From NCBI RefSeq assembly GCF_021044585.1, contig NZ_CP087998.1, positions 744,001 through 808,000 on the forward strand: 64,000 nucleotides of DNA, read 5' to 3'. This document shows, one piece after another, positions 29,396-45,159 of this stretch. The first letter of the stretch is position 1. Each line of letters opens with the position of its first letter. A model generated the notes under the pieces. That model ran no database searches, was not told where the DNA came from, and saw only the letters and a program-made list of their open reading frames with translations. The translations under genes and the position numbers were made by a program. This DNA comes from Sulfurimonas sp. HSL-3221. Lineage in GTDB: Bacteria; Campylobacterota; Campylobacteria; Campylobacterales; Sulfurimonadaceae.

Positions 29396-30706
29396 TCAAC
29401 GTGCTTCGATTCTGACCTCCAGGTGGGTTGCGGCGGTGTCGGCGAAGATCTTCTCCAGATCGGGGCGGCGGTCCGGGGAGGACGGGAGGGCTGTCAACTG
29501 CCCGATCAACAGGCTGAAAAGCTGCAGGGTACTCTGGCCGCTGCGGTTCGTGACGTTGATCTCCAGGGTGTCGGCCCGGCCCATGAGCAGGGCGGAGAAG
29601 GCCGATTCCGCCTCGGTGAGCCAGCGCGTCAGGGCGGGACTGTAGGCGAACTTTGTGCGTTTGCGTTCGAAGGCACGGTGCAGCAGGGTGTCGTACTGGC
29701 CGATGTAGGCGGCGAAGCGTTTGTCTTTGCCGAGCAGGGTGCGGTAGGCGCGGCCGTCGGCGCTGCTTAACGCATGCAGGGCCTTGAAAAGAAGGTCGGG
29801 GGTACCCGAATGCGGCGGTTTCCTTGCCGGGGTAAAAAGGGCCGAGGCGTTGCGCAGCGTGACGTGCAGCGTCAGGGTGTCGTGGTTCCCTTTCGCGTTG
29901 TCGTTGCGGGAGGTGAAACGGCTGTCGATGGTATCGTTCCCCTCATAGGAGGTCTCAAGTGACAGGTGGCCGGAAAACGGGGAGGCGAGCTGCTCGGCGT
30001 AAAGGGTATGCAGCCTCTTTCCGACATAATCGGCCCTGACGGTGTCGTTGGTGTCGAACCAGGCTTCGAGCAGGTAGGGGGCCGCAGCGTAGCTGCTCTC
30101 CGTCTCGTTCGTCTCGAGGGTGGCCCCGGCGTAATCGAGCGAGACGTTTCCGAGCACACGTTCGGCGAAGGCGGCCCCCTTCGCCGTCCGCTTCATCCTG
30201 TTGGCGAAATGGAGGGTATCGATGTGCAGATGGGCCTGGGGATCGTACTGGTCGTAGTCGAAATCCGAGACGTCAAGCTCTTCGAGATTGCCGACAAGGG
30301 CCCGTTCCAGCGCATCTTTTCGGGGGGTTGAGGGCGGGGCGAAATAGGGTTTTTCGGCGGCAAGGTGCTGCCGCTGCAGACGTTCAAGTTCCTCCACCTC
30401 CTTCATCGCGGCGTCAAAGGCCTCTTTGTGCAGCAGCACCCCCAGCGCCTCGTTGAACGATGCGGTCGCCGCCTTGAAGGCGGTGACGGAGGTGCGGTTG
30501 GCATCGCGCTCTTCGATCCTCTGACGCTGTGCCCGGCAGACAAACTGCGTGCGCTCCGCGTGGCATTCGGGGGTGATCCTGCCCTCGGAGCGGTAGGTGA
30601 GGTAACGGGTGAGGTTCACTGCGGGATCGTCGGTCGCTTTGGGGACGGGAACGGCGAAGAGCAGCGCTGCGCTCAGAAGCAGTGCCGGGAGAAGATAGGG
30701 GTTCAT
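29396..30706 (-). CDS. Exported protein of unknown function
   Basis: A 436-residue protein with an N-terminal signal peptide (MNPYLLPALLLSAALLFAVPVP). The mature part is helical with charged and Leu-rich segments, including a likely coiled coil around KEAFDAAMKEVEELERLQRQHL (about residues 95-118). Two Cys sit near the N-terminus (PECHAERTQFVCRAQ). The rest alternates strand-like THR/LSLETS segments and ends in an EVRIEAR strand. No family is recognised. It sits alone between a DsrE gene and the small hypothetical; composition is like the core genes. Confidence 0.6.
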   Translation of the reverse strand: MNPYLLPALLLSAALLFAVPVPKATDDPAVNLTRYLTYRSEGRITPECHAERTQFVCRAQRQRIEERDANRTSVTAFKAATASFNEALGVLLHKEAFDAAMKEVEELERLQRQHLAAEKPYFAPPSTPRKDALERALVGNLEELDVSDFDYDQYDPQAHLHIDTLHFANRMKRTAKGAAFAERVLGNVSLDYAGATLETNETESSYAAAPYLLEAWFDTNDTVRADYVGKRLHTLYAEQLASPFSGHLSLETSYEGNDTIDSRFTSRNDNAKGNHDTLTLHVTLRNASALFTPARKPPHSGTPDLLFKALHALSSADGRAYRTLLGKDKRFAAYIGQYDTLLHRAFERKRTKFAYSPALTRWLTEAESAFSALLMGRADTLEINVTNRSGQSTLQLFSLLIGQLTALPSSPDRRPDLEKIFADTAATHLEVRIEAR

Positions 30707-30755: not shown

Positions 30756-31217
30756 TCAGTCGGCGACGGGGAGGTAGGCGTATCCTTCGTTCTGTTTTTC
30801 GATCAGGCCGACACCGGCGTTGAGGACGGTCGCGATGCCGGGGTAGATATCTTTGGCGTCGATTTTTTTCTTGGTCATCCCCGCCCGGCACATCAGAAAC
30901 GCCACGTCATAGGTCTCGGCAAGGGCGGCGATGCGCTTGGCGAGTTCCGGGGCGGCTTTGAGCAGTTCCGGATCTTTGGCAAAGTCGAAGTGCGCCGGCT
31001 CTTTGAGAAAGAACTTGTAGGCGTTGCCGTGGATGACAACGGCGACATCGAGCTCTTTGAGCTGGTTCTCAAAATAGGTCTTGTGGGCAACGATCCCTTT
31101 GAGAATCTTCTGCTCAAAGGTGTGCATGTCGCCGGTGGTCAGGTCGATGACGACTTTGGGGTTCTCCGCGCCAAAGAGCGAGAGGACGGTCAGCAGGATG
31201 AGAAAGAGTTTTTTCAT
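30756..31217 (-). CDS. Exported DsrE-family protein (sox-linked, first of three)
   Basis: A 153-residue protein: signal peptide (MKKLFLILLTVLSLFGAENP) and a DsrE/F-like alpha/beta domain. The conserved Cys lies in DVAFLMCRAGMTKKKI, the position used by DsrE-type sulfur carriers, and the protein ends GYAYLPVAD, matching GWVYIKP and GFAYIKIQ in the two other DsrE proteins of this window. Export of a DsrE protein suggests a periplasmic persulfide carrier or redox partner; that is inference. It has its own promoter with a direct-repeat operator identical in layout to that of soxX, so it is likely co-regulated. AAGGAG precedes the ATG. Confidence 0.82.
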   Translation of the reverse strand: MKKLFLILLTVLSLFGAENPKVVIDLTTGDMHTFEQKILKGIVAHKTYFENQLKELDVAVVIHGNAYKFFLKEPAHFDFAKDPELLKAAPELAKRIAALAETYDVAFLMCRAGMTKKKIDAKDIYPGIATVLNAGVGLIEKQNEGYAYLPVAD

Positions 31218-31238: not shown

Positions 31239-31272
31239 ATCATACCGGGGGAAAGTAAAAACTATGTAAAAA
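31239..31272 (-). promoter_or_regulatory. Direct-repeat operator and -10 box of the DsrE gene
   Basis: On the minus strand two TTTTTAC half-sites (31266-31272 and 31255-31261) start 11 bp apart. Exactly 10 bases after the second comes TATGAT (31239-31244), giving a leader of about 15 bases. The layout matches the soxX and porin promoters and is that of a PhoB-type class II activator site. Confidence 0.65.
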
Positions 31273-31409: not shown

Positions 31410-32336
31410 TTACTCCGTCAGATCGCCCAGCAGCGTTTCAAAATCGTTCTGTGCTTTCATCAGTTCGGCCTTGGCCTCGTCATCCTGGACGCGCGCGCTG
31501 CTCATCCAGTTGTAGACGCCGGGGAAACCGATGACGATCTTGTCGTCCCCTTTTTTCTTGTACATCATCATCGTACAGGGCGCGAAGGCCGAAGCCTGCG
31601 GGCGCGTCTTGGCGACGTTGTAGATCACCTTCAGCTTGCAGATGGAGTAGGTGTCGTAGAAATCGAAGGGGTTGTCGATACTCTCATCCTCCCCGACGAC
31701 CATTTCGAAATCGAGGGTGTTGGAGAGGACGAACCCTTTGGGACTGAGACCGCCCTGGATTCCCATGGCGAGTTCCTCTTTAACGTCATCGTACTCATCC
31801 TCTTCGACTTCGAGGCTGTAGGTCGAAACCAGCGGTCCCGACGCCGGGAGCGGGTTCTCGTTCTCGATCGCGACGGAGGCCTTCGGCATTGCTGATTCCA
31901 GGGCTTTTAGCGCCGCCGCCTCGATCTTTTTCAGGATCGGGTCGACGCTGCGAAGGCCGATGATCTTGGCCATCGCTTCAGCCGTCAGGACGGAGACGTG
32001 CAGCTGCTTCTCGCCTTTGTGCTGGTAGATCCCGAAGCCCATCGGCACGAAGATGCCGGCATCGGGATACTTGACGACGAGCGTACGGGAGAGGTCCGTA
32101 TGGTAGGCCGTCAGCAGGTAAAAGACGTCGAAGTCGCTCTGCTGGAACTGGATGTTAAACGGTTTGTTCATCTCCGTATTGGCGGCGATGGTGAAGCCGT
32201 TGGCTGCAAGTGAACGTTCGATCACCTGCGGCAGATCGCTCTTGGGGTCGTTATCGACGCTGAAAATCCGCAGGTCGCCCTGGGCATGCAGTGCGATCAC
32301 GGTCGAAAAGAGTAAAAACAGTATGTGTTTCATCAT
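31410..32336 (-). CDS. Exported tandem DUF302-domain protein
   Basis: A 308-residue protein with a short signal peptide (MMKHILFLLFSTVIALHA). It contains two DUF302-like halves: the first with IERSLAANGFTIAANTEMNK and IFVPMGFGIY, the second with LEVEEDEYDDVKEELAMGI and ASAFAPCTMMMYKKKGDD. DUF302 domains are frequent next to sulfur-oxidation and denitrification genes, but their function is unknown. It is 10 bases downstream of a DsrE gene and 72 bases after... the operon order DsrE-DUF302 is repeated logically by the lipoprotein at 54991. Periplasmic location and the linked SoxW-like thioredoxin suggest a role in thiol or sulfur handling. Confidence 0.72.
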   Translation of the reverse strand: MMKHILFLLFSTVIALHAQGDLRIFSVDNDPKSDLPQVIERSLAANGFTIAANTEMNKPFNIQFQQSDFDVFYLLTAYHTDLSRTLVVKYPDAGIFVPMGFGIYQHKGEKQLHVSVLTAEAMAKIIGLRSVDPILKKIEAAALKALESAMPKASVAIENENPLPASGPLVSTYSLEVEEDEYDDVKEELAMGIQGGLSPKGFVLSNTLDFEMVVGEDESIDNPFDFYDTYSICKLKVIYNVAKTRPQASAFAPCTMMMYKKKGDDKIVIGFPGVYNWMSSARVQDDEAKAELMKAQNDFETLLGDLTE

Positions 32337-32346
32337 GGTGTAATCC

Positions 32347-32778
32347 TTACGGTTTGATATAGACCCAGCCCTCTTTGACCCGTTCGATCATCTCGACGAT
32401 GCCGGCGGTGACGACTTCGACGTCGTCGATGAGCTGGTCTTCGGTAATGTTTTTGGTGCGCATGGTGTTGCCGCAGGCGACAAAGGTGACGTCGTACAGC
32501 ATCAGAGTGCGCACCCGTTCCGCAATTTTCGGGTTGTTCTTGAGCAGGGTACGGATCCCTCCCGAATAGGCGACGATCTCCATCTGGACCTTTTCGGGGC
32601 CGTAGAACTTCAGCACGTTGTTGGCGGAGCTGAGGACATGGTTGATCGCCTCGTCAGTCCCTTCGGTCACCGAGAAAACGACCTGGCGGGGGTTATCAAG
32701 GGCCGGTTTGGGATCGGCGAACTCCGTATCGGCGTTCAGCCAGAGGCCCCAGGCCAGCAAAATGATCAGAAAACGCAT
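32347..32778 (-). CDS. Exported DsrE-family protein (sox-linked, second of three)
   Basis: A 143-residue protein with a signal peptide (MRFLIILLAWGLWLNA) and a DsrE-like fold. The single conserved Cys is in DVTFVACGNTMRTKNI; the C-terminal EGWVYIKP strand is shared with the other two. It starts 1 base from the SoxW-like gene's stop and runs into the DUF302 gene, so it belongs to the sox accessory transcript. The single Cys and periplasmic address suggest sulfur binding or redox partnering with the CHYC thioredoxin; no function is established for exported DsrE proteins in sox clusters. Confidence 0.82.
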   Translation of the reverse strand: MRFLIILLAWGLWLNADTEFADPKPALDNPRQVVFSVTEGTDEAINHVLSSANNVLKFYGPEKVQMEIVAYSGGIRTLLKNNPKIAERVRTLMLYDVTFVACGNTMRTKNITEDQLIDDVEVVTAGIVEMIERVKEGWVYIKP

Positions 32779-32779
32779 G

Positions 32780-33157
32780 TTACTCCTTTGTGCACGCCGA
32801 AGCGGTCAGTGCGGTGAAATCCTCCCGGTTCCAGGAGCCCGGGACGGTTTTGATGATGCTGCCGTCGGGCTGAAGGATGACGAAGGTAGGGGTCATCGCG
32901 ACTCTTGCTTCGAAGGGAACGCCCCGCTTCGAGAGGTTGATTTTGACCGGGACAAAGCACCCCTCGACCCAGCGGCTCATAGCCGCATCGTTGAACACGG
33001 CCTGCTCCATGTCGTGGCAGTAGTGGCAGTCGTCGCGCACGAGGGCGGCCAGGATGTTCCTGCCGCTCTCGTGCGCTTCGGCCTTGCCCTGTTCCCAGCT
33101 GCGCCAGTCGACGGCGTCGGCGAGCAGTGGCAGCAGCAGCCAGAGAAGCTTATTCAT
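32780..33157 (-). CDS. SoxW-like periplasmic thioredoxin
   Basis: A 125-residue thioredoxin-fold protein with an N-terminal signal (MNKLLWLLLPLLADAVDW) and the active-site motif CHYC in RDDCHYCHDME, followed by the cis-Pro loop MTPTFVILQ. SoxW proteins reduce sulfur-oxidation enzymes in the periplasm; the match is by motif and context. Its ATG overlaps the end of the upstream metallo-hydrolase gene by 8 bases, which fixes the start at 33157. Confidence 0.82.
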   Translation of the reverse strand: MNKLLWLLLPLLADAVDWRSWEQGKAEAHESGRNILAALVRDDCHYCHDMEQAVFNDAAMSRWVEGCFVPVKINLSKRGVPFEARVAMTPTFVILQPDGSIIKTVPGSWNREDFTALTASACTKE

Positions 33158-34058
33158 CGTCCCACTCCAGCATCCGGTAGGCCACCTCGACGTTTTGCGC
33201 ATGCATCGCATCATAGAGGGCGACACTGCGGAAAGCGTCGAGGCGGATCGTTTTGGTGGCTTCGGCGATGCCGATCCCATCGTCGATGGCATCGCGCACG
33301 CGGTCGCACAGCTGCGTCAGGTAAACATAGGTCATCTGCAGTGCGTCTTTGCCGGTGCTTTTGCCGTGGCCGCCGATGATGTGTTTCAGCGGCATTGCCC
33401 GTATCATCTCCAGCGCGGCGATCCATCCGTGGAGGTCGCCGTCGCGCAGGGAGGGGATACGGTCGTTGAAGACCAGGTCCCCGGCAAACAGCGTCTGCCG
33501 GGAGGGGAAATAGACCAGAAGGTCTTCTGCGGTATGGGCGCGGCGGGTGAGGCGGATGATCCGGATATCCTCGCCGTCGATGCGCAGGGTTTCGTTGGTG
33601 TCGACGTAGCGGGTCGGCAGCGCAATTTCCGTGCCTTCATAGGCTTCGGGGCTGATGCGCTGCTGCATCCGCGTCTTTTCCGTGAGGCTGACCGCCTTTT
33701 TGAAGAGGCGGGGACCGATCACCTCGGCACCCCGGGCTGCGAAATAGCCGTTGCCCAGCCAGTGGTCGTCGTGCACATGGGTGTCGATGACCGGGCCGGT
33801 CTTCTGTGCCTTGATGCGCTGCATGATCTCGGCGGCCTCTTTGGCATAGGCGTAGGTCGGGCCGCTGTCGATGACGAGCCAGCGGTGGCCGGTATCGACG
33901 TAGCAGCTGTTGACCATGTTGCCGTTGTTAACGCTGTTCATCACCTCCGGTTTTCCGAAAAAACAGTAGATGCCCCGGTCGACACTGACCGGTTCGAGAT
34001 GGTACTCGAACGCCACTGCCGATGTGATGCTAAGCCACACAGTCCAGAGCATTTTCAT
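33150..34058 (-). CDS. Metallo-beta-lactamase-fold hydrolase (SoxH-like)
   Basis: A 302-residue exported MBL-fold protein with a signal peptide (MKMLWTVWLSITSAVAF). It keeps THVHDDHWLGNG (HxHxDH zinc motif), a His in RRAHTAEDL, the bridging Asp in LFAGDLVFNDR and a final IIGGHGKST histidine. SoxH and related quinoprotein-relay hydrolases show this architecture in sox and methanol-oxidation clusters; their substrate is unknown, with thiol esters or glutathione persulfide-like compounds as candidates. It lies between the porin and the SoxW-like gene in the same direction. Confidence 0.82.
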   Translation of the reverse strand: MKMLWTVWLSITSAVAFEYHLEPVSVDRGIYCFFGKPEVMNSVNNGNMVNSCYVDTGHRWLVIDSGPTYAYAKEAAEIMQRIKAQKTGPVIDTHVHDDHWLGNGYFAARGAEVIGPRLFKKAVSLTEKTRMQQRISPEAYEGTEIALPTRYVDTNETLRIDGEDIRIIRLTRRAHTAEDLLVYFPSRQTLFAGDLVFNDRIPSLRDGDLHGWIAALEMIRAMPLKHIIGGHGKSTGKDALQMTYVYLTQLCDRVRDAIDDGIGIAEATKTIRLDAFRSVALYDAMHAQNVEVAYRMLEWDDE

Positions 34059-34071
34059 CTGTCAATCCTTC

Positions 34072-35628
34072 CTAGAAGAGGTAGTTCAGCTCGAAGCGGT
34101 ATTCGTTGTAGGAGTCTTTGTCATACCCCGCTTCACGATCTTTGGCATCGACCAGGCCGATGCGGACTTTGGCTTCCAGGCCCGGAACAGCTTTGACCTT
34201 TTCGATCAGGTCGATATGGATGATATTGCTGTCCGCCTGTACACCGGCCGCCTGCTTGTCCTCGTCGAAGTCCTGCATTGCGTAACGGACCATCGCGCTC
34301 AGACCGGAGACCAGGTTGGCCTTGTCGAAGTTGAAGTTGACCTGCGCGGCAGTCGTCTTGGTATTGGCGTACCAGTTGTACTGCGCCATCGCACGGGTGT
34401 AGCCGCCGGTCGGGAAGCCGCGCCACGGCGCGACAATATCCGCTTCGTCGGCGACGGCGGAGTAGGCGACCATCATTTTAAGCGGGCCGGTTTCCGCGAC
34501 GAGACGCGCCATCCAGAGGCTGGAGTCGAGGCTGTCAGGGGTATCGTAACCCTTGGTGTTGTCAAAGACGGCCGTACCGCCGGTCCAGTCGACGAGGGTC
34601 CCTTTGAGGGAGGCACCACCGACCTTACCGCCGCCGTCGTCCATCTGTTTCATGTAGCGGGCACCCGGCGTGATCTTCCAGCCTCCGAGCGGAATGGCAT
34701 AGTTGATCTCACCGGTCAGGGAGCTGACGACGCCCGGGACGCCGCCGTAGGTCAGGTCGAGCTGCAGGTTCTTGATTGATTTGTTCTGTACGTCGGCGAC
34801 GATCAGCGAATGGGTGATGTCCTTACCCGCCGCACGGAAGTTGTTGACGCTCAGACCCTTGTGGACCGCGGAGTCGTCATTGCCGTTCCATTGCGTTTTG
34901 ACGCTCGTGTTGGAGTCATCAAAAGTGAGGACGTCGTGGAAGGTCTCATGGTCGCGCAGCTTCTGCTGGTAGAACCAGGCACCGCGGATCCGTGTCTGCG
35001 GGAGCTCTTTGGTCGTGAAGGAGTAACCCTCGAAGGTGTTCGGGATCATCTTCGTGTCGTTGGACTTGGTCAGGAAACTCTCGAAGATCTGACGGCCGGC
35101 GACGAAGGAGGTTTTGGAAATGTCATACTGGACATAGGCCTGCGCCAGCGTCGCAAAGCCGTAGTTGCCGAGGCGGTTGACGTTGTAGCGGCTGGTCGTA
35201 TCCTTGCCCGCCTTGAGGTAGCCGATGTTAGCTTCGGACATACGCTCGCCCGGGAACGGTTCGTCGGTATAGTACAGACCCGCACCGGCGCTCAGGCCGT
35301 AGAGGGACGCGGTTTTGTAGATCAGGTTACCGCCGAGCCCCAGGGCACGGTTGTCCTTGTTCTTCGTCTGCGCCGTATCGTCGTTTTTCCAGTCCCAGTT
35401 GAAGGAGTTAACGCGCAGACGGCCGTAGACGACGCCCTTGGCAAACATATCGGTGATGGTATCCGCTTTGCCGGGGAGCACGTTGTAGACTTCCATCATG
35501 TTCCCCTTCAGGGAGCGCTTGGGCGTGAATGCTTCGCCGTCGGCGGCAGAAGCACTGCTCGTCAATGTACAGGCCAGCGCGGCCGCGGCGGCAGTCGAAA
35601 TGAATTTCATTGATTTAATATTAGCCAT
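34072..35628 (-). CDS. Outer-membrane porin of the sox cluster (Opr-like)
   Basis: A 518-residue beta-barrel protein with a signal peptide (AAAAALACTLTSSASAAD) and the strand/turn pattern of the Campylobacterota Opr/OprD-type porins, ending EYRFELNYLF with the terminal Phe. It follows soxB after 161 bases containing a hairpin. It probably lets thiosulfate or other anions in and out of the periplasm where the Sox enzymes work; inferred from location. TTG/ATG choice: the ATG at 35628 gives MANIKSMKF; an internal Met (MKFIST) is also possible. Confidence 0.78.
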   Translation of the reverse strand: MANIKSMKFISTAAAAALACTLTSSASAADGEAFTPKRSLKGNMMEVYNVLPGKADTITDMFAKGVVYGRLRVNSFNWDWKNDDTAQTKNKDNRALGLGGNLIYKTASLYGLSAGAGLYYTDEPFPGERMSEANIGYLKAGKDTTSRYNVNRLGNYGFATLAQAYVQYDISKTSFVAGRQIFESFLTKSNDTKMIPNTFEGYSFTTKELPQTRIRGAWFYQQKLRDHETFHDVLTFDDSNTSVKTQWNGNDDSAVHKGLSVNNFRAAGKDITHSLIVADVQNKSIKNLQLDLTYGGVPGVVSSLTGEINYAIPLGGWKITPGARYMKQMDDGGGKVGGASLKGTLVDWTGGTAVFDNTKGYDTPDSLDSSLWMARLVAETGPLKMMVAYSAVADEADIVAPWRGFPTGGYTRAMAQYNWYANTKTTAAQVNFNFDKANLVSGLSAMVRYAMQDFDEDKQAAGVQADSNIIHIDLIEKVKAVPGLEAKVRIGLVDAKDREAGYDKDSYNEYRFELNYLF

Positions 35629-35789: not shown

Positions 35790-37556
35790 TCAGCAGCCTC
35801 CCCCCTTGGAAGGACAGCCGCAATCGTAATCCAGCAGCTTGACATTGCCCGCATTGCTGACATCCACCACTTTTTTGCGGCGGATATAGTCACGGACGAC
35901 ATCATAGACGGGACGGATTTTCTCTTTTTGGAGATTCTCGCCCGCATTCTGGAGGTTGCCTCCCCATGACGAAACGACATAGGTCCGCTTCGGATCGATC
36001 GGTTTGCCCCCCACAAGAAGATTGCTGATACGCTTGCCGCGGGCGTTGCCGACGGCGATGTCGTAGGTCACCCCGCCGAGGCGGCTCATATCGCCGCCCT
36101 GCTGATAGAGCGGGTTGGCGTTGAAGACGTTGTCGGCGATATCTTCAAGCAGGTTGGCGATACGTTCGCCCTTCAGCTCGAAGGTGTAGACGTTGGGATA
36201 GGTGATCCCGCACATCTCGTAGACGTTGTCCATCAGAATGTCGTCTCCCGGAAGGACCGTTGTCCCCCACCGGTAGCCCGGCGTGAAGGAGATGTCGCAT
36301 TTCATTTCATCCATGATCGCGTCATTGATAAGCTGATCGAAGGTCGAGAAGAAGGTGTCGCGCTTGTAGAGCAGCCCCTTCGTTTTCCCGAGCACTTCAT
36401 TGAACTCCTTGTCAAAGGGAGCATAGAGCTCCGCAACGAGCTTCTCACCCACCGGGTCCGCCGGAATGATGTTCGACGCGACCGGGATGAGCTTGTACTC
36501 ATACCCTTTGACCTTGTGGTCCCGGATATCGATATCGAGGCGCCCGACGTATTTGCCGTGGCTGCCTGCGATGACGATGACCGTGCCGTCGATGACAATA
36601 GGCTTCGGGGAGGGGTCGTGCGTATGGCCGCTGAGGATAAAGTCGATCCCGTGGACCTTGCGTGCCACCTCCTGGTCGACGCTGAAACCGTCGTGCGACA
36701 GCACGACGACACAGTCGACCTTGTGCTCTTCGCGCAGCTCGTCGACATACTCCTGCAGCGTGTCAAGCCGCAGCCCGAAGCTCCACCCCTCGGTGAACTC
36801 TTTCGGGTTCGCCGTCGAGGTGAACGGGAAAGACTGGCCGATAATGCCGATCTTCGCCCCGTTGCGCTCTTCGATGGTATAGGGCTCGAAAATGAGCTCT
36901 TCGTACTCTTCGGAGAAGGGGTCGTCCCCGATAATGTTCTGGGAGACGAACTTCGCATCGAGTTTGTCAATGAGCTCCTTGACCCGCTCTTTGCCGTAGG
37001 TGAACTCCCAGTGGCCGACCATGACGTCGACGCCGAGGTAGTTCTGGGCCTTGACGATCGCTTCGCCCTCTGTCTTCAGCGCGACGCCGGTGCCCTGCCA
37101 GGTGTCGCCGGAGTCGAGCAGCAGGACTTTCTCCTTGCCGCGCTGGCGTTCGACCTCGTCGATCAGGGTCTTCATGTGGGCGATGCCGCCCATCTTCCCG
37201 AATTTGCGCGCCAGGGCGGCAAAATCCATGTGGGTGTCGAAGTAGGCGTCGAGGGAGCTGGGCTCCAGCCCGTAGTGCTTGGCAAAAGCTTCGCCGCAGA
37301 GGAAACCGGGCGTCCCCACGAGGTTCGGCGCCGAGATCAGGGTCGAAGGCTCGCGCCAGTAGAGGGGCTTGATGTGCGCATGCAGGTCACAGATGTGCAG
37401 CAGGGTCACATTGCCCGTCTCTTTGAAGTCATACAGATCCGCAAGCGAGATGTCCGCGGGGTTTTTCCCCCCGACGGTCGTCGCGTAGCCGTTGGAAACC
37501 GTCACCAGTCCCAGGGCCGCTGCGATCTGCAGAAAGTCTCTTCTTGAAATATCCAT
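35790..37556 (-). CDS. soxB: SoxB thiosulfohydrolase
   Basis: A 588-residue dimanganese enzyme of the 5'-nucleotidase family that releases sulfate from the SoxY-bound thiosulfonate. It has a twin-arginine-like start (MDISRRDFLQIAAALGL), the metal motif CDLHAH, DSGDTWQG, GHWEF in place of the nucleotidase GNHE, SGHTHDPSP, and a C-terminal nucleotidase-like domain. The C-terminus is unusual: DCGCPSKGGGC, three Cys in a Gly-rich tail encoded across a run of six G. The tail may bind metal or be an artefact of a slippery 3' end. It follows soxA by 11 bases. Confidence 0.95.
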   Translation of the reverse strand: MDISRRDFLQIAAALGLVTVSNGYATTVGGKNPADISLADLYDFKETGNVTLLHICDLHAHIKPLYWREPSTLISAPNLVGTPGFLCGEAFAKHYGLEPSSLDAYFDTHMDFAALARKFGKMGGIAHMKTLIDEVERQRGKEKVLLLDSGDTWQGTGVALKTEGEAIVKAQNYLGVDVMVGHWEFTYGKERVKELIDKLDAKFVSQNIIGDDPFSEEYEELIFEPYTIEERNGAKIGIIGQSFPFTSTANPKEFTEGWSFGLRLDTLQEYVDELREEHKVDCVVVLSHDGFSVDQEVARKVHGIDFILSGHTHDPSPKPIVIDGTVIVIAGSHGKYVGRLDIDIRDHKVKGYEYKLIPVASNIIPADPVGEKLVAELYAPFDKEFNEVLGKTKGLLYKRDTFFSTFDQLINDAIMDEMKCDISFTPGYRWGTTVLPGDDILMDNVYEMCGITYPNVYTFELKGERIANLLEDIADNVFNANPLYQQGGDMSRLGGVTYDIAVGNARGKRISNLLVGGKPIDPKRTYVVSSWGGNLQNAGENLQKEKIRPVYDVVRDYIRRKKVVDVSNAGNVKLLDYDCGCPSKGGGC

Positions 37557-37567
37557 TCATCTGTCCT

Positions 37568-38338
37568 TTAGCGTTTCAGGCCGGGGATCGCGATCGTTTT
37601 GTTCTTGGCTTTCGCGAGAGTGGTGACATAGACCTCAAGGCCCACCATCTCATCCGAACCGATCGGGAGCACCGCCAGCAGGGCGTTTTTCATACACCCC
37701 TGGAAGCGGCGCTGGAGGGTGCGCAGGGAGGACTTCGTCATCCGGTACGCGGGCCAGGTCGCACCGGCGCCGGCTTCGCCCAGGTCCGGCAGGGGCTGGG
37801 TGCGCAGTACCGAACCGACGATGTCGGCGGAGTGGCAGCTGTTGCACGAAAGCCCGCGGCCGCCGCGCGCTGTCATAAAGACCTCTTCGCCCAGTTTATA
37901 GGCCGCCTTCATCTGCGGGTTGGCGTTGACGTCGATCGCCACCGCTTCCTCGTTGGCCAGCGATTTGGCGTAGGCCAGCATCGCAAACATCTCTTTGCTG
38001 CTGAGCTTGAACGGCTTGTGACCGTTCTCGGCCATCAGCGCCTGCATCACCTGGTCGATACCGAGGACGGCATCAAACTGTTTGATATAGCGGGGGAAGC
38101 CGGCAATGTACGCGGGGAGCTTCGCTTCGGAAACGCCCAGGAACTTTGCCAGGCCGGCGTCGCCGCCGCAGTTCTCATCGACGAGCTCGCCGCCCCATTC
38201 GACGTCCATCTCCGCCGGGTTGTTCTCCAGCAGTTCCGCATAGAGCGCGCGGTCGGCGTCGCTCATGGCGAACTGCTCGCCGCCCATGGCCAGCGTCCCG
38301 CAAAGCAGGGTGGCCGCAATGATTGATGTAACTTTCAT
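37568..38338 (-). CDS. soxA: SoxA c-type cytochrome, mono-haem form
   Basis: A 256-residue exported cytochrome with signal peptide (KVTSIIAATLLCGTLAMGG). Only one CxxCH is present (CNSCH in GLSCNSCHSADIV), with the catalytic persulfide-type Cys in RFQGCMKNA. The N-terminal haem of diheme SoxA proteins is missing: that region reads VDENCGGDAGLAKFLG without CxxCH, although the remnant Cys remains. With SoxX it oxidatively attaches thiosulfate to SoxY. It starts 3 bases after soxZ. Confidence 0.93.
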   Translation of the reverse strand: MKVTSIIAATLLCGTLAMGGEQFAMSDADRALYAELLENNPAEMDVEWGGELVDENCGGDAGLAKFLGVSEAKLPAYIAGFPRYIKQFDAVLGIDQVMQALMAENGHKPFKLSSKEMFAMLAYAKSLANEEAVAIDVNANPQMKAAYKLGEEVFMTARGGRGLSCNSCHSADIVGSVLRTQPLPDLGEAGAGATWPAYRMTKSSLRTLQRRFQGCMKNALLAVLPIGSDEMVGLEVYVTTLAKAKNKTIAIPGLKR

Positions 38339-38341
38339 GGC

Positions 38342-38677
38342 TCAGCCTTTCGGTTTGAGTTTTTTCGACTTCTCTTGGACTTCGCCGGTGTTGGTCTTGT
38401 AGACGACTTTCAGTGTCCCTGCAGCGGGCACTTTGAAGTTGATCGTGAAGACCGGGTTCGTCGAAACGGATTCCCAGACCTGCATTGTCGTGAACGGGGT
38501 GTCGTTGAAGAAGAACTTCACCTCGGTGATGTAATCGGCGGGCACGATCTTGCCGCTCTTCTTGTCTTTGCGCATCCCGGTTTCCATCGGGTGCATGACC
38601 ATGAAGTTGACCTTGACGACGTCGCCGCTCTTAAACTTTTTCGGTTTGATTTTGATCAGTGATTTTCTTTCTGCCAT
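38342..38677 (-). CDS. soxZ: SoxZ sulfur-carrier partner
   Basis: A 111-residue protein with no signal peptide; it is exported bound to SoxY. The sequence has the family pattern KIKPKKFKSGDVVKVNFMVMHPMETG and ends in two edge strands (FTINFKVPAAGTLKVVYKTN). Length (about 100-110) is normal. Together with SoxY it forms the substrate carrier of the pathway. Confidence 0.95.
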   Translation of the reverse strand: MAERKSLIKIKPKKFKSGDVVKVNFMVMHPMETGMRKDKKSGKIVPADYITEVKFFFNDTPFTTMQVWESVSTNPVFTINFKVPAAGTLKVVYKTNTGEVQEKSKKLKPKG

Positions 38678-38718: not shown

Positions 38719-39195
38719 TCAGCCGCAGCCGCCGATCGTGACTTTGACGCTCTGTTTCGCGCTGAGGAATTCGCCGGTGCTGGTTTCGGCGACGACGAGG
38801 ACGTCCTGGGAACTGCCGAGCTTGATACGTGTCGCGAACATGGCTGCGCCGTTGGCCGGTGTCAGCATGATATCGGCACAGCGGACGTTGCTGTTTTTGG
38901 TGGCGAAGACGTGGATTGCCTTGACGTAGTCATCCGGTGTCATCGGAGAGTCGACCTCGATGGTGACGGGTACGACGGCACCGTTTTCCGCGATCTCAGG
39001 CGCTTTCAGGTGCACTTTCTTTGAAGGTGTCACGGCCTTGCCGCCGGTAATGGCCTTAAGGGCCGCGTCGATGTCCATCGTGTTGGGCCCTTTGGGCGCT
39101 TCCGCCGCGAGCAGGCTCTGCGGGGTGAGGGTTGCTGTTGCTGCCGTGGCCGCTGCGGCCAGACCGATACGTTGTAAGAAACTTCTTCTTTGCAT
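38719..39195 (-). CDS. soxY: SoxY sulfur-carrier protein
   Basis: A 158-residue protein with a twin-arginine signal (MQRRSFLQRIGLAAAATAAT) and the C-terminal swinging-arm sequence TIGGCG, whose Cys carries the covalent sulfur intermediates. The start at 39195 is set by AAAGGAG 7 bases upstream and by the family's length. Located between soxX and soxZ as in other Campylobacterota sox clusters. Confidence 0.95.
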   Translation of the reverse strand: MQRRSFLQRIGLAAAATAATATLTPQSLLAAEAPKGPNTMDIDAALKAITGGKAVTPSKKVHLKAPEIAENGAVVPVTIEVDSPMTPDDYVKAIHVFATKNSNVRCADIMLTPANGAAMFATRIKLGSSQDVLVVAETSTGEFLSAKQSVKVTIGGCG

Positions 39196-39205
39196 GGGTT
39201 CTCCT

Positions 39206-39736
39206 TTAGTGTTTAATGGAAACGATATACGAGGTGATGTCGCAGATCTCACGTTCGGTAAAGAGACCGGTCGTAAGGTTGATCGTCATATGCGTCTTCG
39301 GGTTGTCGACACGCGCGTCGGCGATCTTCTGGTAGACGAACTGGTTGTCGCGGGTACCCGTTTCAATGAAAAACGCATGGTAGTTTGTCAGGTCGGGCCC
39401 GATATTTCCGGCGCCTTTGGCCCCTTCGATATTGTGGCAGGCGACACAGTTGCCGTACTGCTTCGGCGAGCCGTTTGCATTCTTTTTTGACAGGCCTGCC
39501 GGCAGTTTGCCTTTGGCTTTTTCTCCATTGAGGTTATGGAAAATGTATGCGCCCCGGGCGATCGCGTCCTTGTCGTCCGTGATACACCCCGCCGGCATCG
39601 TGTAGGCCTTAGCCGGGCCGAACAGATCCTTCTGGATGATCGACGCCGCTTCGGGCCGCTCGATGGCATCGGACAGGTTGGCGGCGAACGCTACACCCAG
39701 ACCGATGGTCGTACTGAGTAACAGCCATCTCTTCAT
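39206..39736 (-). CDS. soxX: SoxX c-type cytochrome
   Basis: A 176-residue cytochrome with a signal peptide (MKRWLLLSTTIGLGVAFA) and one haem motif CVACH (GNCVACHNIEGAKG), plus GNIGPDLTNY and the Met ligand candidate in THMTINLT. It is the electron-accepting half of SoxXA. AAGGAG lies about 8 bases before the ATG at 39736. The start codon is only 15 bases from the terminal repeat of the 269-bp element that separates it from its promoter. Confidence 0.92.
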   Translation of the reverse strand: MKRWLLLSTTIGLGVAFAANLSDAIERPEAASIIQKDLFGPAKAYTMPAGCITDDKDAIARGAYIFHNLNGEKAKGKLPAGLSKKNANGSPKQYGNCVACHNIEGAKGAGNIGPDLTNYHAFFIETGTRDNQFVYQKIADARVDNPKTHMTINLTTGLFTEREICDITSYIVSIKH

Positions 39737-39751
39737 CGTATTTCTCCTTTT

Positions 39752-40020
39752 GGGCACCTCTAAAAACCCTGCATGGTCTCAGCGCCACAGAGAAAAGTCA
39801 TAATCAAGGCGACGCTTTGAAGGCCTAGCCGTAGCTAAGCCGAAAAGCGGCAACGCCGAGTATGGCTTTTCTCTGTGGCGCCCTGCGGGAGAGCTTTTGA
39901 AGCACGATCTTTCCTCCGTTTTCGTCTTGACTTAGCTTTGGCTAGGCCTGAAACGAAAACAAAGAAAACCTCATACTTCAAAAGCCCTCTGGGGTCCATG
40001 CAGGGTTTTTAGAGGTGCCC
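39752..40020. mobile_element. 269-bp MITE-like element between the sox promoter and soxX
   Basis: Perfect 25-bp terminal inverted repeats (39752-39776, 39996-40020; starting GGGCACCTCT) bound the element. Inside are two palindromic modules: module A (39782-39881) with 21-bp arms matching at 20 positions, and module B (39889-39989) with 14-bp arms matching at 13. Their centres hold 19-bp sequences (39821-39839, 39931-39949) that are inverted copies of each other at 17 positions. No reading frame is credible. No clear target duplication longer than 1-2 bases was seen. It accounts for most of the 381-base gap before the kinase gene. Confidence 0.75.
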
Positions 40021-40037: not shown

Positions 40038-40071
40038 ATTGTAACGGTGCAATGTAAAAACAATGTAAAAA
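40038..40071 (-). promoter_or_regulatory. Direct-repeat operator and -10 box of the sox operon
   Basis: On the minus strand two TTTTTAC half-sites (40065-40071 and 40054-40060) start 11 bp apart; exactly 10 bases after the second is TACAAT (40038-40043). Transcription would start near 40031, about 11 bases before the element begins, so the element lies in the 5' leader. Leader length is about 295 bases with the element and about 26 without. Confidence 0.7.
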
Positions 40072-40117: not shown

Positions 40118-41293
40118 TCAAATAGCAGGATTTTGGCAGAGATGGGGCGGGAAAACGTAGGTAAATGTGCTTCCCTGTTGGGGTACGGAAGAGACCTCCA
40201 GGGTGATGCCGGTCTCCTCCATGATCGCCTTGACGATGTTGAGCCCGATACCAAAACCGCCCTTGCCGGTCTCCTCGCGGTAGTAGCGTTCAAAGATCTT
40301 TTCGGTGTTTTCGATCCCCAGCCCGTAATCCCTGAAGGTCAGTTCGCAGCGGTGGTCGTACCGTTTCAGGGCAACCTCGACAATGCTGTTCTCGTGGGAG
40401 TACTTGATGGCGTTGGAGATGTTGTTGTCGATGATGCGCTGCAGCTGGGTCTGGTTGAAGTGCAGGATCACCCCTTCATCGATCTCGGAGGCGATGGTGA
40501 TCCCTTTCATGGCGGCGACCTCGTTAAAATAGAGGATGCGCTCGCGCACGAAGGCGCTGACGTCGATCTCCTCGTATTCGAAAACGATCTGCTTGTTCTT
40601 GATGAGGTACTCCATGTCGTTATAGATGTTCGAGAGGGTCTTCGACGCGGCTTTGATACGCTGCAGGTATTTGCTCTGGGGGTGCTTGCGGTTGTAGAGA
40701 TCGATGTTGATGTTGATGATGGAGAGGGGGGTGTTGATCTCGTGGACGGTATCTTTGATAAAGTTGTCCAGCTTCTGGTTGACGCGTTTGAACGGCAGGG
40801 CAAAACGCTGCAGGACAAGGAGCGAAAGGAAAAAGACGAGGACGACGATGGCGATGAGGATCGTCGCGACGCGCTCGTAGACGGGCGCGTAGGTGAGGTG
40901 GTTGCCGACGATGAGGTACTCCGCCCCGAAATAGCGCTCCCGGGGGAGGGGGATGATGAGGTAGGCGCTGTGACTCTCGTCGATGTGGTACCCGGCGGCA
41001 AAGTGTTCCATCGGAAAATCGATGAGGGTGAAGATCGGCTTGAAGTGCAGGTCGTAAAGCCCCGAGACGATCCGCTTGAAGCGGGGGTACTCGAAGTAGC
41101 TTTCACGGTTTTCGTCGTACTCCTCCATGGCGCTGATGACACGGGCGGCGTGCTGCTTGAGCATCAGTTCGTTCTGGATCCCGTGGATCTGTTTCATATA
41201 GACGGTGTAGACATAAAGCGGCGCGAGGAGGATCACCGTGATCAGCGCCGTGTAGAGCACCGCGTTTTTGAGGGCGTACTGATTATCTTTCAA
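40118..41293 (-). CDS. Sensor histidine kinase next to the sox operon
   Basis: A 391-residue membrane kinase. Two transmembrane helices (about 10-32 and 143-163) bracket a 110-residue periplasmic domain; then a HisKA domain with phosphoacceptor His184 in DTVHEINTPLS, and an HATPase_c domain with N-box DNNISNAIKYS and G-boxes DYGLGIE and GGFGIGLNI. It overlaps the response-regulator gene by 11 bases, so both are co-translated. Located directly upstream of the sox promoter, it is the best candidate for controlling it. Confidence 0.9.
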   Translation of the reverse strand: MKDNQYALKNAVLYTALITVILLAPLYVYTVYMKQIHGIQNELMLKQHAARVISAMEEYDENRESYFEYPRFKRIVSGLYDLHFKPIFTLIDFPMEHFAAGYHIDESHSAYLIIPLPRERYFGAEYLIVGNHLTYAPVYERVATILIAIVVLVFFLSLLVLQRFALPFKRVNQKLDNFIKDTVHEINTPLSIININIDLYNRKHPQSKYLQRIKAASKTLSNIYNDMEYLIKNKQIVFEYEEIDVSAFVRERILYFNEVAAMKGITIASEIDEGVILHFNQTQLQRIIDNNISNAIKYSHENSIVEVALKRYDHRCELTFRDYGLGIENTEKIFERYYREETGKGGFGIGLNIVKAIMEETGITLEVSSVPQQGSTFTYVFPPHLCQNPAI

Positions 41294-41936
41294 TGATATA
41301 CCCTATGCCGCGGCGATTTTTGATGATGTCCGCGGGGAGTTTTTTGCGCAGGTTGTTGATCTGGACCCGGATGTTGGCGGGGTCGACGTATTCGCCCCAC
41401 ACTTCGTCCTGGAACATCGCCATGGAGACGGCCTGGTTCGTATGGCGCAGCAGGACCTCCAGGATATCGTTCTCCGTCTTGCTCAGTGTGATCGGTTCTT
41501 CCTTGTAGCTCAGCTGCATCCGTTTCGTGTCGTAGCGCAGATCCGGGGCGAGCTCGATCGCTTCACTGTGCTTATAGTAGTAGCTGCGCAGCGCATGCTC
41601 GATGCGCAGCTGCAGTTCGGTAAGGTCAAAGGGTTTACGGATGTAGTCGCAGCAGCCGCGCTTGTACCCCTCTTCAAGGTCCTTGGTCTGGGTCCGGGCG
41701 GTAATGAAGATGGCCGGGGTCTCGTTGCCCTCGGCGCGCAGGGTTTTGAGCAGTTCGAATCCACTGAGGCCGGGGACGTTGACATCGAACAAGAAAAGGT
41801 CGAAATGGGTCGCGCAGGCGGCGTCGAAAGCGTCGTCGCCGTTGGCGTAGGTCTCGACGTTGAAATCAAGATCCTCCAGGAACTCCTCGATACTGACGCG
41901 CAGCGCGTATTCGTCTTCCAGCAGCAGAATCTTCAT
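41283..41936 (-). CDS. OmpR/PhoB-family response regulator
   Basis: A 217-residue regulator: receiver domain with the acidic pocket LEDE and phosphorylation site Asp51 (FLFDVNVPGLSG), the conserved Thr (FITARTQ) and Lys (IRKPFDLTEL), and a C-terminal winged-helix DNA-binding domain (about 125-217, ending RGIGYIIER). Members bind direct repeats with 11-bp spacing, the exact spacing found in three promoters of this region. The start overlaps the stop of the upstream Cache-protein gene by four bases. Confidence 0.93.
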   Translation of the reverse strand: MKILLLEDEYALRVSIEEFLEDLDFNVETYANGDDAFDAACATHFDLFLFDVNVPGLSGFELLKTLRAEGNETPAIFITARTQTKDLEEGYKRGCCDYIRKPFDLTELQLRIEHALRSYYYKHSEAIELAPDLRYDTKRMQLSYKEEPITLSKTENDILEVLLRHTNQAVSMAMFQDEVWGEYVDPANIRVQINNLRKKLPADIIKNRRGIGYIIER

Positions 41937-43051
41937 CGTATCTCTCCTTCAATCTTCCGGGCGAGCTTGTAGTGGAGCATCAGGGCGATCAGCTCCTCTT
42001 TGGTGTAGGTGGAGAGCACGTCGCGCGCCTCCTCCATAAAGAGTTCCCGGTCTTCTTCGGGAACGGTGTCCTTGAGCGAGAGCAGGGCTTTGTCGTATCC
42101 GCTGTGGTAGACCTTGTTGTCATACTGCTCCTTTTTAACGATGTCGTAGAGGTTGTTCCGCGAGAACGCGAGCAGGAAAGAGAGGTCCTCCCCGCTGCGG
42201 GCAAAGTGTTCGATGCTCTGTTTCGGCATGACGAAGACGAAGGCGCCGATGGTCTCACCGTCGCCGTTGCGCATCGGCTCGAAGAAGATGTACTTGTTCT
42301 CCCGCAGCATGATCCGTTCTTTACGCAGCTGTTTCATGTCCAGGCGCTGCAGGACCTTGAGGTTGATGTTGTTGTAGCGGCGGTTGCCGACGAGGTACCA
42401 GGCGACCGAAGGGTTGTTCTGCATCAGTACGGCGGTGTTGTAGTAGCTGTCGTCGAGCAGGGCGTAGAGGTCAATCCCGAACTTGTGGAAGAAGTCGGTA
42501 CTGGCGTCGAAGAACTTCAGCACTTCGACAAAGCCGATGAGCTCCCCCTCCTCGTACATGGGCACGGTTGCCTTGATCCCCAGACGCCGACCGACTTCGA
42601 TGGAGGAGCGCGGTTTCTTGTGCAGCATAATCTCTTCGAGGTCGCGGCGGTAGGTATCGAGCGGCATCCCCGCAAAGAGGTTGTCGGCATCCCAGCTGCG
42701 GGCAAAGAGGCGCGAATCCGCGGTGATGATCTGAGCCCGCACGAGTTCGGAGGTGTTCTTCTGCACCGATTTGATCATCCGTTTGAGGAGGGCGAAACCC
42801 GCTTCGTCGTCATCTTCTTTGAGGGCATGCCGGAGGGAATCGTTCTCCGAGAGGATCAGCGCAAAGCGCAGGGCGTCCTCCTTCTCGTTGCGCAGCTCCG
42901 TGCGCAGGGAGAGGCTGAGCTGGTCGCTGACCTCGTCGACGACCTGCCACGCAACCTCCCGGTTGAAGACTTCTATGGTCATAATCAGTAAGAGAATGAT
43001 GAGAAAGAAAGGAACGGCGAAGAGCAGGTTGTTTCTGGAAAATAGCTTCAA
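41933..43051 (-). CDS. Membrane-anchored periplasmic double-Cache sensor protein
   Basis: A 372-residue protein with one N-terminal transmembrane helix (about 8-27) and the rest outside the cytoplasm. The pattern RNEKEDALRFALILSENDSLR, GIKATVPMYEEGELIGFVEV and KYIFFEPMRNGDGETIGAFVFV fits a dCache_1-type ligand-binding module. It has no kinase, methyl-accepting or other output domain, so it must act through a partner, most simply the co-transcribed kinase. It starts with TTG (AAGGAG about 10 bases upstream) and has its own promoter. Confidence 0.8.
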   Translation of the reverse strand: MKLFSRNNLLFAVPFFLIILLLIMTIEVFNREVAWQVVDEVSDQLSLSLRTELRNEKEDALRFALILSENDSLRHALKEDDDEAGFALLKRMIKSVQKNTSELVRAQIITADSRLFARSWDADNLFAGMPLDTYRRDLEEIMLHKKPRSSIEVGRRLGIKATVPMYEEGELIGFVEVLKFFDASTDFFHKFGIDLYALLDDSYYNTAVLMQNNPSVAWYLVGNRRYNNINLKVLQRLDMKQLRKERIMLRENKYIFFEPMRNGDGETIGAFVFVMPKQSIEHFARSGEDLSFLLAFSRNNLYDIVKKEQYDNKVYHSGYDKALLSLKDTVPEEDRELFMEEARDVLSTYTKEELIALMLHYKLARKIEGEIR

Positions 43052-43076: not shown

Positions 43077-43106
43077 ATTATATCAAAATGTTATTACACT
43101 GTTCAA
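43077..43106 (-). promoter_or_regulatory. Sigma-70-like promoter of the sensor-regulator-kinase operon
   Basis: TTGAAC (43101-43106) and TATAAT (43077-43082) on the minus strand, 18 bp apart, a near-consensus promoter 26 bases before the TTG start. No direct-repeat operator is present, so these genes seem not to be controlled by the same site. Confidence 0.6.
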
Positions 43107-43174: not shown

Positions 43175-43678
43175 TTACTGGATCTTGATGTAGGCGAACC
43201 CGTCGCGCTGGTCGTCAATGACCTTGACGATGCCGCCGGGGGTGATCTCCACGTTGTCGGCGATCTGTTCCGCCTTGACGTTCTTCTTGTCCATGGTGTT
43301 CTGACAGGCGAAAAAGGTAATGTTGTCGCCGCCGAGCAGCTTGAGGCCGTTAAAGCGTTTGCGTGTCCCTTCCCCCGTCGGTCCGCCGTGTTCCAGGTAG
43401 GGCTTGGCCGCGAAGCCGGTCCCTTTGAAGTCCTTCATGAAGTACTGAAGGCACGGCCCCAGTGCGACGACGTCGATCTCGTACTGGATCAGGTTCTTCT
43501 CGTAATATTTTACGGCGTTATTAAGCGTGTTCAGCATGAGGTGGACCCTCTGCACATCGGGGAAGTCGCACTGGTAGACGACCTTGACGACGTCATCGTC
43601 GTCATCGGCCCAGACCGTTGGTACGAAAAGGGTGAGCGCCAGTGCCGCTATCATCCGTGTAATCGAAATGTATTTCAT
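43175..43678 (-). CDS. Exported DsrE-family protein (third of three)
   Basis: A 167-residue protein with a signal peptide (MKYISITRMIAALALTLFVPTVWA) and an acidic DDDDD stretch after it. The DsrE domain has the shared Cys in NITFFACQNTMDKKNV and the C-terminal GFAYIKIQ; extra Cys occur in VVYQCDFPD and VALGPCLQY, so this one has three mature cysteines. It follows a porin gene by 11 bases and is transcribed from that gene's direct-repeat promoter. AAAGGAG precedes the start. Confidence 0.82.
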   Translation of the reverse strand: MKYISITRMIAALALTLFVPTVWADDDDDVVKVVYQCDFPDVQRVHLMLNTLNNAVKYYEKNLIQYEIDVVALGPCLQYFMKDFKGTGFAAKPYLEHGGPTGEGTRKRFNGLKLLGGDNITFFACQNTMDKKNVKAEQIADNVEITPGGIVKVIDDQRDGFAYIKIQ

Positions 43679-43689
43679 GTTTTCTCCTT

Positions 43690-45096
43690 TTAAAAAGCTG
43701 CGGTGAGCTGGATGGCGAGGCGATCGCCCATATTGTCCAGAACATTCTGCGCCGCAGCGTTGCCCGGTGCTTTCGCATCGCGGATCATGTAGTTGAAATC
43801 GATCCGCGTCGGGCCGCGGAAGCGATAGGAACATCCCAGGGTGATGGTCTGGAAGTCGCGTTCGCCCTTGGAGTCGTTGGTCAGGCGGTTCATAAAGTCA
43901 TAGCGGCCGAAGACCTCGAACTGCTTGGGAAAGAGCTCGTACTGCAGGTTGAGATAGCCGCCTTCGGCCTTGTTCTCGGTGCCGACGGCAAACTGCAACT
44001 GCCACTCTTCCTGATAGGGGTCAGGGTCTGTGTCCTTGGCGCCCGTATAGATCATGCCTTCGGCCCACATATATTCCGCTTCCGCCCGCAGGCCGTTCTC
44101 GTAGTAGGAGAAGCCGATGCCATAGCGTTTACGGTCGTGCTTGACGGGCGTGGTCGTGCCGTTGGCGTCGGTGGAGTAGAGCCGACGCTTGCCGGTCTGC
44201 CCCCAGACAAAGAACTTAAGGGCTTCGGTGTAGAAGCCTTTGCCGGCGCCGAAGTCGTCTTCGAGGGCCAGATAGCCGTAATGGGTCGCCTGGTGGTCCG
44301 AAGCGTTGTGGGAAATCCCCGTACCGTTGCCGTACATGTAGGCGTAACTGAGCGTCCACCCCTGACCGAGCGCAAAGGTGTCGAAGAGCTCGATGCCCAT
44401 GTCCCGGAACGCGGCGATCGGACGTGTGACGTCGGTGCTGGTGTAGTGCACCGTCGAAGCGCCGCCGGCCGCTTTGCCGGTCTGTGCGGTACCGACATTG
44501 GTCACTTGGCGTTCGAGCAGCTGCTGGTTCGTCATCGTGGTGAACTCGATATAGGGGGAGACGAAGACGGCGCGCAGCCCCTCTTCGCTGCCGGGGGTTT
44601 TAAACATACCGATGCGCGCATTAAGCCCCGGGACGTGGCGGAGTGTCACCGACGCGTCGGTGAAGTAGGTGGCGGTGTCATGCCCGGCGAGATTGTTGAC
44701 GGCATTATTGCCGAACTCCGTCATGAAAAAATAGTTGACTTTGTTGTCGTTGTCGGCCATGCCGCGCGCGGCGAGTCTGGCGCGAAAAAGGCTGAACCCC
44801 TCCTGGTCGGCCAGATTGGGGTTCAACAACGAGAACGGGGTTTTGTTCCCGCCGTTCGGGTCGATGAAGACGTCGCCGTAATCCTGCTTATAGTTGGCCT
44901 GGATAAAGCCCCAGACGACGGGCATCTTGTTGCGATAGGGCACGACAACCCCTTTGGGCGCGACGTTGTCGGGCTGCGTTCCCTGCAGCATCAGCCAGTT
45001 GGCCGCCTCCAGCGACATAGCGCTTAAAAGCAATACTATTATTCCTGCTACTCCCCTGAAAAAGGGGCGTATTAAACCGTTTTCTTGCGTGGGCAT
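43690..45096 (-). CDS. Phosphate-selective-porin-like outer-membrane protein
   Basis: A 468-residue porin with a signal peptide (VAGIIVLLLSAMSLEAANW). The strand pattern, the LRHVPGLNARIGMFKTP and FEVFGRYDFMNR segments and the terminal AIQLTAAF (Phe end) fit the OprO/OprP family of anion-selective porins. Linked to an exported DsrE gene and driven by a promoter of the same type as soxX, it probably serves uptake of an anionic sulfur compound; that is inference. A second, different porin is in the sox operon. Confidence 0.82.
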   Translation of the reverse strand: MPTQENGLIRPFFRGVAGIIVLLLSAMSLEAANWLMLQGTQPDNVAPKGVVVPYRNKMPVVWGFIQANYKQDYGDVFIDPNGGNKTPFSLLNPNLADQEGFSLFRARLAARGMADNDNKVNYFFMTEFGNNAVNNLAGHDTATYFTDASVTLRHVPGLNARIGMFKTPGSEEGLRAVFVSPYIEFTTMTNQQLLERQVTNVGTAQTGKAAGGASTVHYTSTDVTRPIAAFRDMGIELFDTFALGQGWTLSYAYMYGNGTGISHNASDHQATHYGYLALEDDFGAGKGFYTEALKFFVWGQTGKRRLYSTDANGTTTPVKHDRKRYGIGFSYYENGLRAEAEYMWAEGMIYTGAKDTDPDPYQEEWQLQFAVGTENKAEGGYLNLQYELFPKQFEVFGRYDFMNRLTNDSKGERDFQTITLGCSYRFRGPTRIDFNYMIRDAKAPGNAAAQNVLDNMGDRLAIQLTAAF

Positions 45097-45125: not shown

Positions 45126-45159
45126 ATGATAGAACCGGAGTGTAAAATTAATATAAAAA
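45126..45159 (-). promoter_or_regulatory. Direct-repeat operator and -10 box of the porin-DsrE operon
   Basis: On the minus strand TTTTTAT (45153-45159) and ATTTTAC (45142-45148) start 11 bp apart, and TATCAT (45126-45131) begins exactly 10 bases after the second, giving a leader of about 23 bases. Same layout as at soxX and the first DsrE gene. Confidence 0.6.

Follow-up and report, generated by a model that had tools for sequence, protein, structure and literature searches.

In the present study, we found that three promoters in a stretch of 64,000 nucleotides (hereafter the window) share one box. The best reading of the sequence is that this is a class-II activator box of PhoB geometry for the OmpR-family response regulator encoded at 41283-41936, with sox as the core target. 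It is highly probable that the three sites are operators of one local regulon under this regulator, which would act as an activator. The boxes and their parts are as follows.

40038-40071, minus strand: sox promoter box (TTTTTACATTGTTTTTACATTGCACCGTTACAAT), exact motif match; TTTTTAC half-sites at 40065-40071 and 40054-40060, -10 box TACAAT at 40038-40043
31239-31272, minus strand: DsrE promoter box (TTTTTACATAGTTTTTACTTTCCCCCGGTATGAT), exact motif match; half-sites at 31266-31272 and 31255-31261, -10 box TATGAT at 31239-31244
45126-45159, minus strand: porin promoter box (TTTTTATATTAATTTTACACTCCGGTTCTATCAT), inexact match; TTTTTAT at 45153-45159, ATTTTAC at 45142-45148, -10 box TATCAT at 45126-45131

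The original prediction had assigned one layout with the same spacings to all three sites. The spacings were indeed present in all three, whereas the exact motif occurred at two; the porin box retained a period of 11 bp and a distance of 10 bp to the -10 box, but its half-sites (TTTTTAT and ATTTTAC) were two mismatches away from the motif. With this qualification for the third site, the layout is that of a direct-repeat operator, in which two half-sites lie about 11 bp apart and about 10 bp before the -10 box. The claimed common orientation also held, since each of the three boxes points at the gene that it precedes, namely soxX (ATG at 39736), the DsrE gene (ATG at 31217) and the porin gene (ATG at 45096). 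The distance from box end to ATG was 21 bp for the DsrE gene and 29 bp for the porin gene. The genes of the locus are listed below.

43690-45096, minus strand: porin-like outer-membrane protein, first gene after the box at 45126; exported by sequence, putatively a porin, no Pfam or NCBIfam family matched
43175-43678, minus strand: small exported protein after the porin gene; start at Met 53 of a 219-aa open reading frame, DsrE-like by eye only, no Pfam match
41933-43051, minus strand: membrane-anchored periplasmic dCache_3 protein (Pfam dCache_3, 1e-14)
41283-41936, minus strand: OmpR-family response regulator that is proposed to bind the box (Pfam Response_reg and Trans_reg_C)
40118-41293, minus strand: sensor histidine kinase (Pfam HisKA and HATPase_c; two membrane helices predicted by hydropathy)
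39206-39736, minus strand: soxX (TIGR04485 above cut-off)
38719-39195, minus strand: soxY (Pfam SoxY, 2e-37)
38342-38677, minus strand: soxZ (Pfam SoxZ)
37568-38338, minus strand: soxA (Pfam SoxA-TsdA_cyt-c)
35790-37556, minus strand: soxB (Pfam Metallophos and 5_nucleotid_C, and its place in the cluster)
31410-35628, minus strand: downstream sox run of an OprD porin, a SoxH-like metallohydrolase, a thioredoxin-like protein, DsrE and DUF302; order kept in relatives
30756-31217, minus strand: exported DsrE-family protein after the box at 31239 (Pfam DsrE, 3e-10)
29396-30706, minus strand: exported 436-aa protein, 49 bp after the DsrE gene and probably in one operon with it; no Pfam or NCBIfam match

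A genome-wide scan for the motif, which had been proposed together with the prediction, was carried out as a pattern search. It was observed that TTTTTAC-N4-TTTTTAC-N10-TANNNT matched exactly at only two places in the whole 2,524,721-bp genome, the sox and DsrE boxes, both in the window. The reversed control pattern gave no match in the same 2,524,721 bp, and the exact motif gave none in 100 shuffles of the window. The bare repeat with up to two mismatches matched 40 times in this genome versus 61 times for the reversed control, so weak matches to the bare repeat carry no information.

The conservation of the box was assessed in relatives retrieved with the regulator as query. These were mainly Sulfuricurvum and further genomes of Sulfurimonadaceae type, and most of them have the gene order dCache-regulator-kinase-soxXYZAB in common. 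In 34 of the 36 relatives, the box was found about 45 bp ahead of soxX, always with a TANNNT -10 hexamer 10 bp on. Within 150 bp upstream of soxX, the strict pattern TTTAC-N6-TTTAC-N10-TANNNT occurred in 34/36 relatives versus 0/1800 shuffles, and the bare repeat with up to two mismatches in 33/36 versus 1.2% of shuffles. Only the repeat was used to choose the aligned soxX sites; neither the N10 gap nor the TANNNT hexamer played a part in the choice, yet both were constant in all of them (34/34). In other families of the order, the box still lay upstream of soxX; its flanks had drifted to AATTTAC or ATTTTAC, and a few of these families had a gap of 11 bp to the -10 box. A matrix trained on the soxX promoters of 34 relatives, with the window left out, scored the sox, porin and DsrE boxes at 40.5, 32.0 and 25.4 bits, respectively. 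No further site above 8 bits was found in the 64-kb window, and shuffled windows gave no match above 15 bits in 10/10 trials. It could be argued that the repeats are merely an A/T-rich core promoter and that the three sites resemble one another by chance, as A/T richness ahead of the -10 box is a feature of Campylobacterota promoters. This explanation has a negligible probability in view of the absence of shuffle matches, the two exact matches genome-wide and the conservation of orthologous promoters, base by base, across many genera; a chance likeness of the three sites is already refuted by these sequence statistics.

Using the same matrix on related loci, we detected the box upstream of soxX almost everywhere. 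It also preceded DsrE orthologues in other genera (loci L151-L153, L156, L161 and L176) and porin orthologues in other genera (L013, L151 and L153). Therefore, each of the three boxed promoters of the window has a boxed counterpart elsewhere. Further boxes were located upstream of a DUF302 gene (L034, L168), of dCache_3 proteins (L004, L172) and of a Sulf_transp (YeeE/YedE-type) gene (L173). The common theme of the boxed genes is periplasmic sulfur compounds, comprising their oxidation, transport and taxis. In the sister genome G005, the sox and DsrE boxes were kept although the porin operon was absent, indicating that porin and DsrE were added as targets in particular lineages. Chemoreceptor-type genes with a box were observed in two Sulfuricurvum-like genomes (L178 and L181; Pfam MCPsignal, dCache_3 and CZB for L181), suggesting that taxis and sulfur oxidation are co-regulated there.

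The regulator belongs to the OmpR/PhoB family (receiver domain PF00072, 4.7e-25; C-terminal winged helix PF00486, 4.1e-15), is 217 aa long and carries the phospho-acceptor Asp51 in DLFLFDVNVPG. It was not identified as PhoB, as it scored 116 bits against TIGR02154, whose cut-off is 296, and 125 against RespRegPhoBBctds, whose cut-off is 270; among the best 25 NCBIfam equivalogs shown, none reached its cut-off. The DNA-recognition region EYVDPANIRVQINNLRKKL was kept across box-bearing relatives, and the region VDPANIRVQINNLRKKL was almost unchanged in both sox-linked and non-sox regulator loci. In locus L039, the recognition helix differed (DPGTVRAQIKNLKQAL) and the sox promoter had TTTCAC half-sites instead (TTTCAC-N5-TTTCAC). 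One or two cases of this kind suggest that a change in the helix may be paired with a change in the half-site.

The co-inheritance of regulator and sox genes was counted in 249 genomes of the order, with thresholds of E <= 1e-20 for SoxX and E <= 1e-55 for the regulator. SoxX was found in 48 genomes, the regulator in 64 and both in 46. The regulator was thus present in 46/48 soxX-bearing versus 18/201 soxX-less genomes (Fisher p = 9e-33, with related genomes counted as independent). As for the two exceptions, G043 has SoxX and neither regulator nor box, and G052, a fragmented assembly of 150 contigs, has soxX and a related box without a regulator above the threshold of E <= 1e-55. The regulator may therefore be absent from the G052 assembly, or it may have diverged. 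We also inspected 14 regulator loci, from genomes or second copies in which the regulator does not adjoin soxX. These loci gave 13 box matches in 160 kb versus 0-1 in shuffles, and most of the boxes precede exported paired-CXXCH multihaem cytochrome genes beside the regulator. The simplest reading of these patterns is that this regulator family binds this box. The original proposal that the OmpR-type regulator controls a sox, porin and DsrE regulon is thus supported, at the level of sequence, by box conservation, co-occurrence and the non-sox loci. In loci L231-L240, homologues of the dCache-regulator-kinase trio were seen in soxX-less genomes beside boxed cytochrome genes, and they form a second branch of the signalling family.

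A different arrangement would be that the box is a true shared operator bound by another OmpR-family regulator, with the neighbouring regulator serving other targets. Other OmpR-type regulators do occur in the genome, for example at G000:C1:1852964 with 36% identity. In addition, near-identical boxes lie at MoxR and HtrA-like genes, and the MoxR one also occurs in a genome without the sox-linked regulator (G001), so other OmpR-type regulators may use similar boxes. We nevertheless consider this arrangement unlikely, because the regulator adjoins the box and co-occurs with it order-wide, the box accompanies regulator homologues to cytochrome loci, and G043, which has SoxX without such a regulator, has no box. 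Control by the neighbouring regulator is the reading preferred here. The MoxR site itself, 282966-282997 of G000:C1 (L085), reads ATTTAC-N5-ATTTACC-N9-TATGAT before a MoxR-type ATPase gene and is conserved in the genus; a like box stands upstream of the HtrA-like gene in G031 (L174). These boxes are probably the operator of another OmpR-type, envelope-stress regulator, and the MoxR site is not claimed for the regulon. Nor are two other sites claimed, namely 1510923, before a gene for an exported 217-aa protein, and 2480443-2480476 (G000:C1, L090), 255 bp before a His-rich HypB-like gene. The latter is box-like and kept in four genomes of the genus, with a possible link to hydrogenase genes.

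According to the proposed mechanism, the neighbouring kinase would phosphorylate the regulator, and the phosphorylated regulator would bind the two half-sites 11 bp apart as a head-to-tail dimer. The bound region would span about -40 to -23 relative to the transcription start, and the bound regulator would activate RNA polymerase at the -10 box 10 bp on. The targets turned on in this way would be soxXYZAB with its downstream genes, as well as the operons of DsrE and the porin. A consensus scan found no -35 element at the three boxed promoters. Campylobacterota sigma70 promoters are not generally known to carry a conserved -35 element, so a replacement of the -35 box by the repeats would say little when taken alone. 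The regulator might instead bind the boxes as a repressor and keep sox off when another donor or condition prevails, since the direction of control is not readable from sequence and some sox regulators elsewhere repress, such as the alphaproteobacterial SoxR (PMC10318464). Repression appears very unlikely, however, because the box lies directly upstream of the -10 box with a constant 10-bp gap in 34/34 soxX sites, as for a class-II activator, and the three boxed promoters have no consensus -35 element. Activation is the direction that we infer.

The membrane-anchored dCache_3 protein probably senses a periplasmic signal and relays it to the kinase. The protein carries a single N-terminal membrane helix and lacks a kinase domain. 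Its gene adjoins the regulator and kinase genes in the window and in nearly all relatives, as in a three-component system with a separate exported sensor. The AlphaFold model (mean pLDDT 79) showed a fold like that of DctB and other double-PAS sensors, and half of the domain was also CitA-like by fold; a profile search with the dCache_3 protein found no solved structure related by sequence. The modelled DctB/CitA-like fold would fit a small-anion ligand without naming it, and our guess from the neighbouring genes is that the signal may be thiosulfate or a related sulfur anion. A promoter was located directly before the dCache gene.

43077-43106, minus strand: sigma70-like promoter TTGAAC-18-TATAAT directly before the dCache gene, without a box (consensus scan)

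This promoter suggests that the sensor-regulator genes are expressed at a basal level in this strain. It is common to the sister genome G004, and other sequence takes its place in G005 and G007. The dCache promoter of these two genomes carries a degenerate TTTAT-N6-TTTAT-N10-TATCAT, as read by eye. Any autoregulation by way of the porin box would have to come from read-through: in G007, the porin pair lies about 1.2 kb from the dCache gene, and the sox-regulator locus of G005 showed neither a porin gene nor the gene for a small exported protein. No minus-strand terminator-like site was found from the kinase gene to the sox box, so read-through into sox is also possible.

The architecture can be compared with several known systems. 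In pstS, the half-sites are separated by N4 and followed by about N10 to the -10 box. The PhoB consensus consists of two 11-bp direct repeats, a 22-bp box bound by an OmpR-family regulator (PMC3978041). The sox boxes share the 11-bp direct repeats and the layout of N4 plus about N10 with the Pho box of E. coli; they differ in the half-site, CTGTCAT for PhoB and TTTTTAC here, and in the targets, phosphate genes versus sulfur oxidation genes. The boxes of DccR, an OmpR-type regulator of Campylobacter, read WTTCAC-N6-TTCACW, and its targets are colonization genes, not sox. The likeness to the present box, judged by consensus, is the 11-bp period, which may be compared with TTTCAC-N5-TTTCAC of L039; no open-access paper giving the DccR box sequence was found. 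In Acidithiobacillus caldus, the two-component systems TspS-TspR, with a sigma54-dependent TspR (PMC10318464), and RsrS-RsrR, with an OmpR-like RsrR reported on a 19-bp inverted repeat upstream of tetH (PMC5093147), likewise adjoin sulfur-oxidation genes. The present system differs from both in its 11-bp direct repeats, -10-only promoter and separate dCache protein, and the 217-aa regulator lacks the AAA+ sigma54-interaction domain that an NtrC-type activator such as TspR would carry. Besides TspS-TspR, the described sox regulators are SoxR, of the ArsR family, and the CsoR-like TTHA1953 (PMC10318464). The latter two belong to families unrelated to that of the present regulator, which is of the OmpR and not the ArsR family. 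AioXSR consists of a separate periplasmic sensor, a histidine kinase and a response regulator, in which AioX is a binding protein of another family than dCache and AioR is sigma54-dependent. It resembles the present system in having a separate periplasmic sensor besides kinase and regulator, the role of the dCache protein being putative here. AioXSR, an arsenite system, is named as a three-component system in PMC4563254.

In the literature searched, which included few subscription papers, no Campylobacterota sox regulator was found. A 2019 review of respiratory regulation in the phylum named no regulator of sox and referred to sox a single time. According to the genome paper on Arcobacter butzleri, the switch that decides whether sulfite is oxidised or reduced has yet to be identified. 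As the regulator is not PhoB and no sox regulator of Campylobacterota was found, the regulon appears to be new, while its architecture is known. At vents and redoxclines, Campylobacterota that use sox are dominant among the sulfur oxidisers. With a regulator named and its 34-bp operator and candidate targets listed, the control of sox could be tested directly in any genetically tractable relative, and the operator would permit regulon prediction in unculturable members. A broader proposal, which we regard as possible but short of probable, is that an order-wide, unreported three-component family (membrane-anchored dCache_3 sensor, kinase and OmpR-type regulator) governs thiosulfate oxidation in Campylobacterota through a single conserved 34-bp operator. 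In some lineages, this family would also drive chemoreceptors and a transporter of sulfur anions, and in others respiration by multihaem cytochromes. If this were true, one signal class would control the uptake, taxis and oxidation of sulfur compounds.

Finally, an insertion was found in the sox leader of this strain.

39752-40020, minus strand: MITE-like palindromic element of 269 bp that separates soxX from the sox promoter and is bounded by perfect terminal inverted repeats of 25 bp

Because of this insertion, the distance from the end of the sox box to soxX was 301 bp in this strain versus 27 bp in the three sister genomes G004, G005 and G007, in which the element is absent from the sox leader. 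Rfam gave no match at the gathering score in the leader. As RNA, the leader was predicted to fold into a large branched hairpin (-170 kcal/mol, z = -15.9) that leaves the ribosome site free. The element occurs commonly within the genus and patchily across the family, and seven further copies, some of them partial, were found in the genome. Across the eight copies, 47 of 111 consensus pairs showed pair types differing on both sides.
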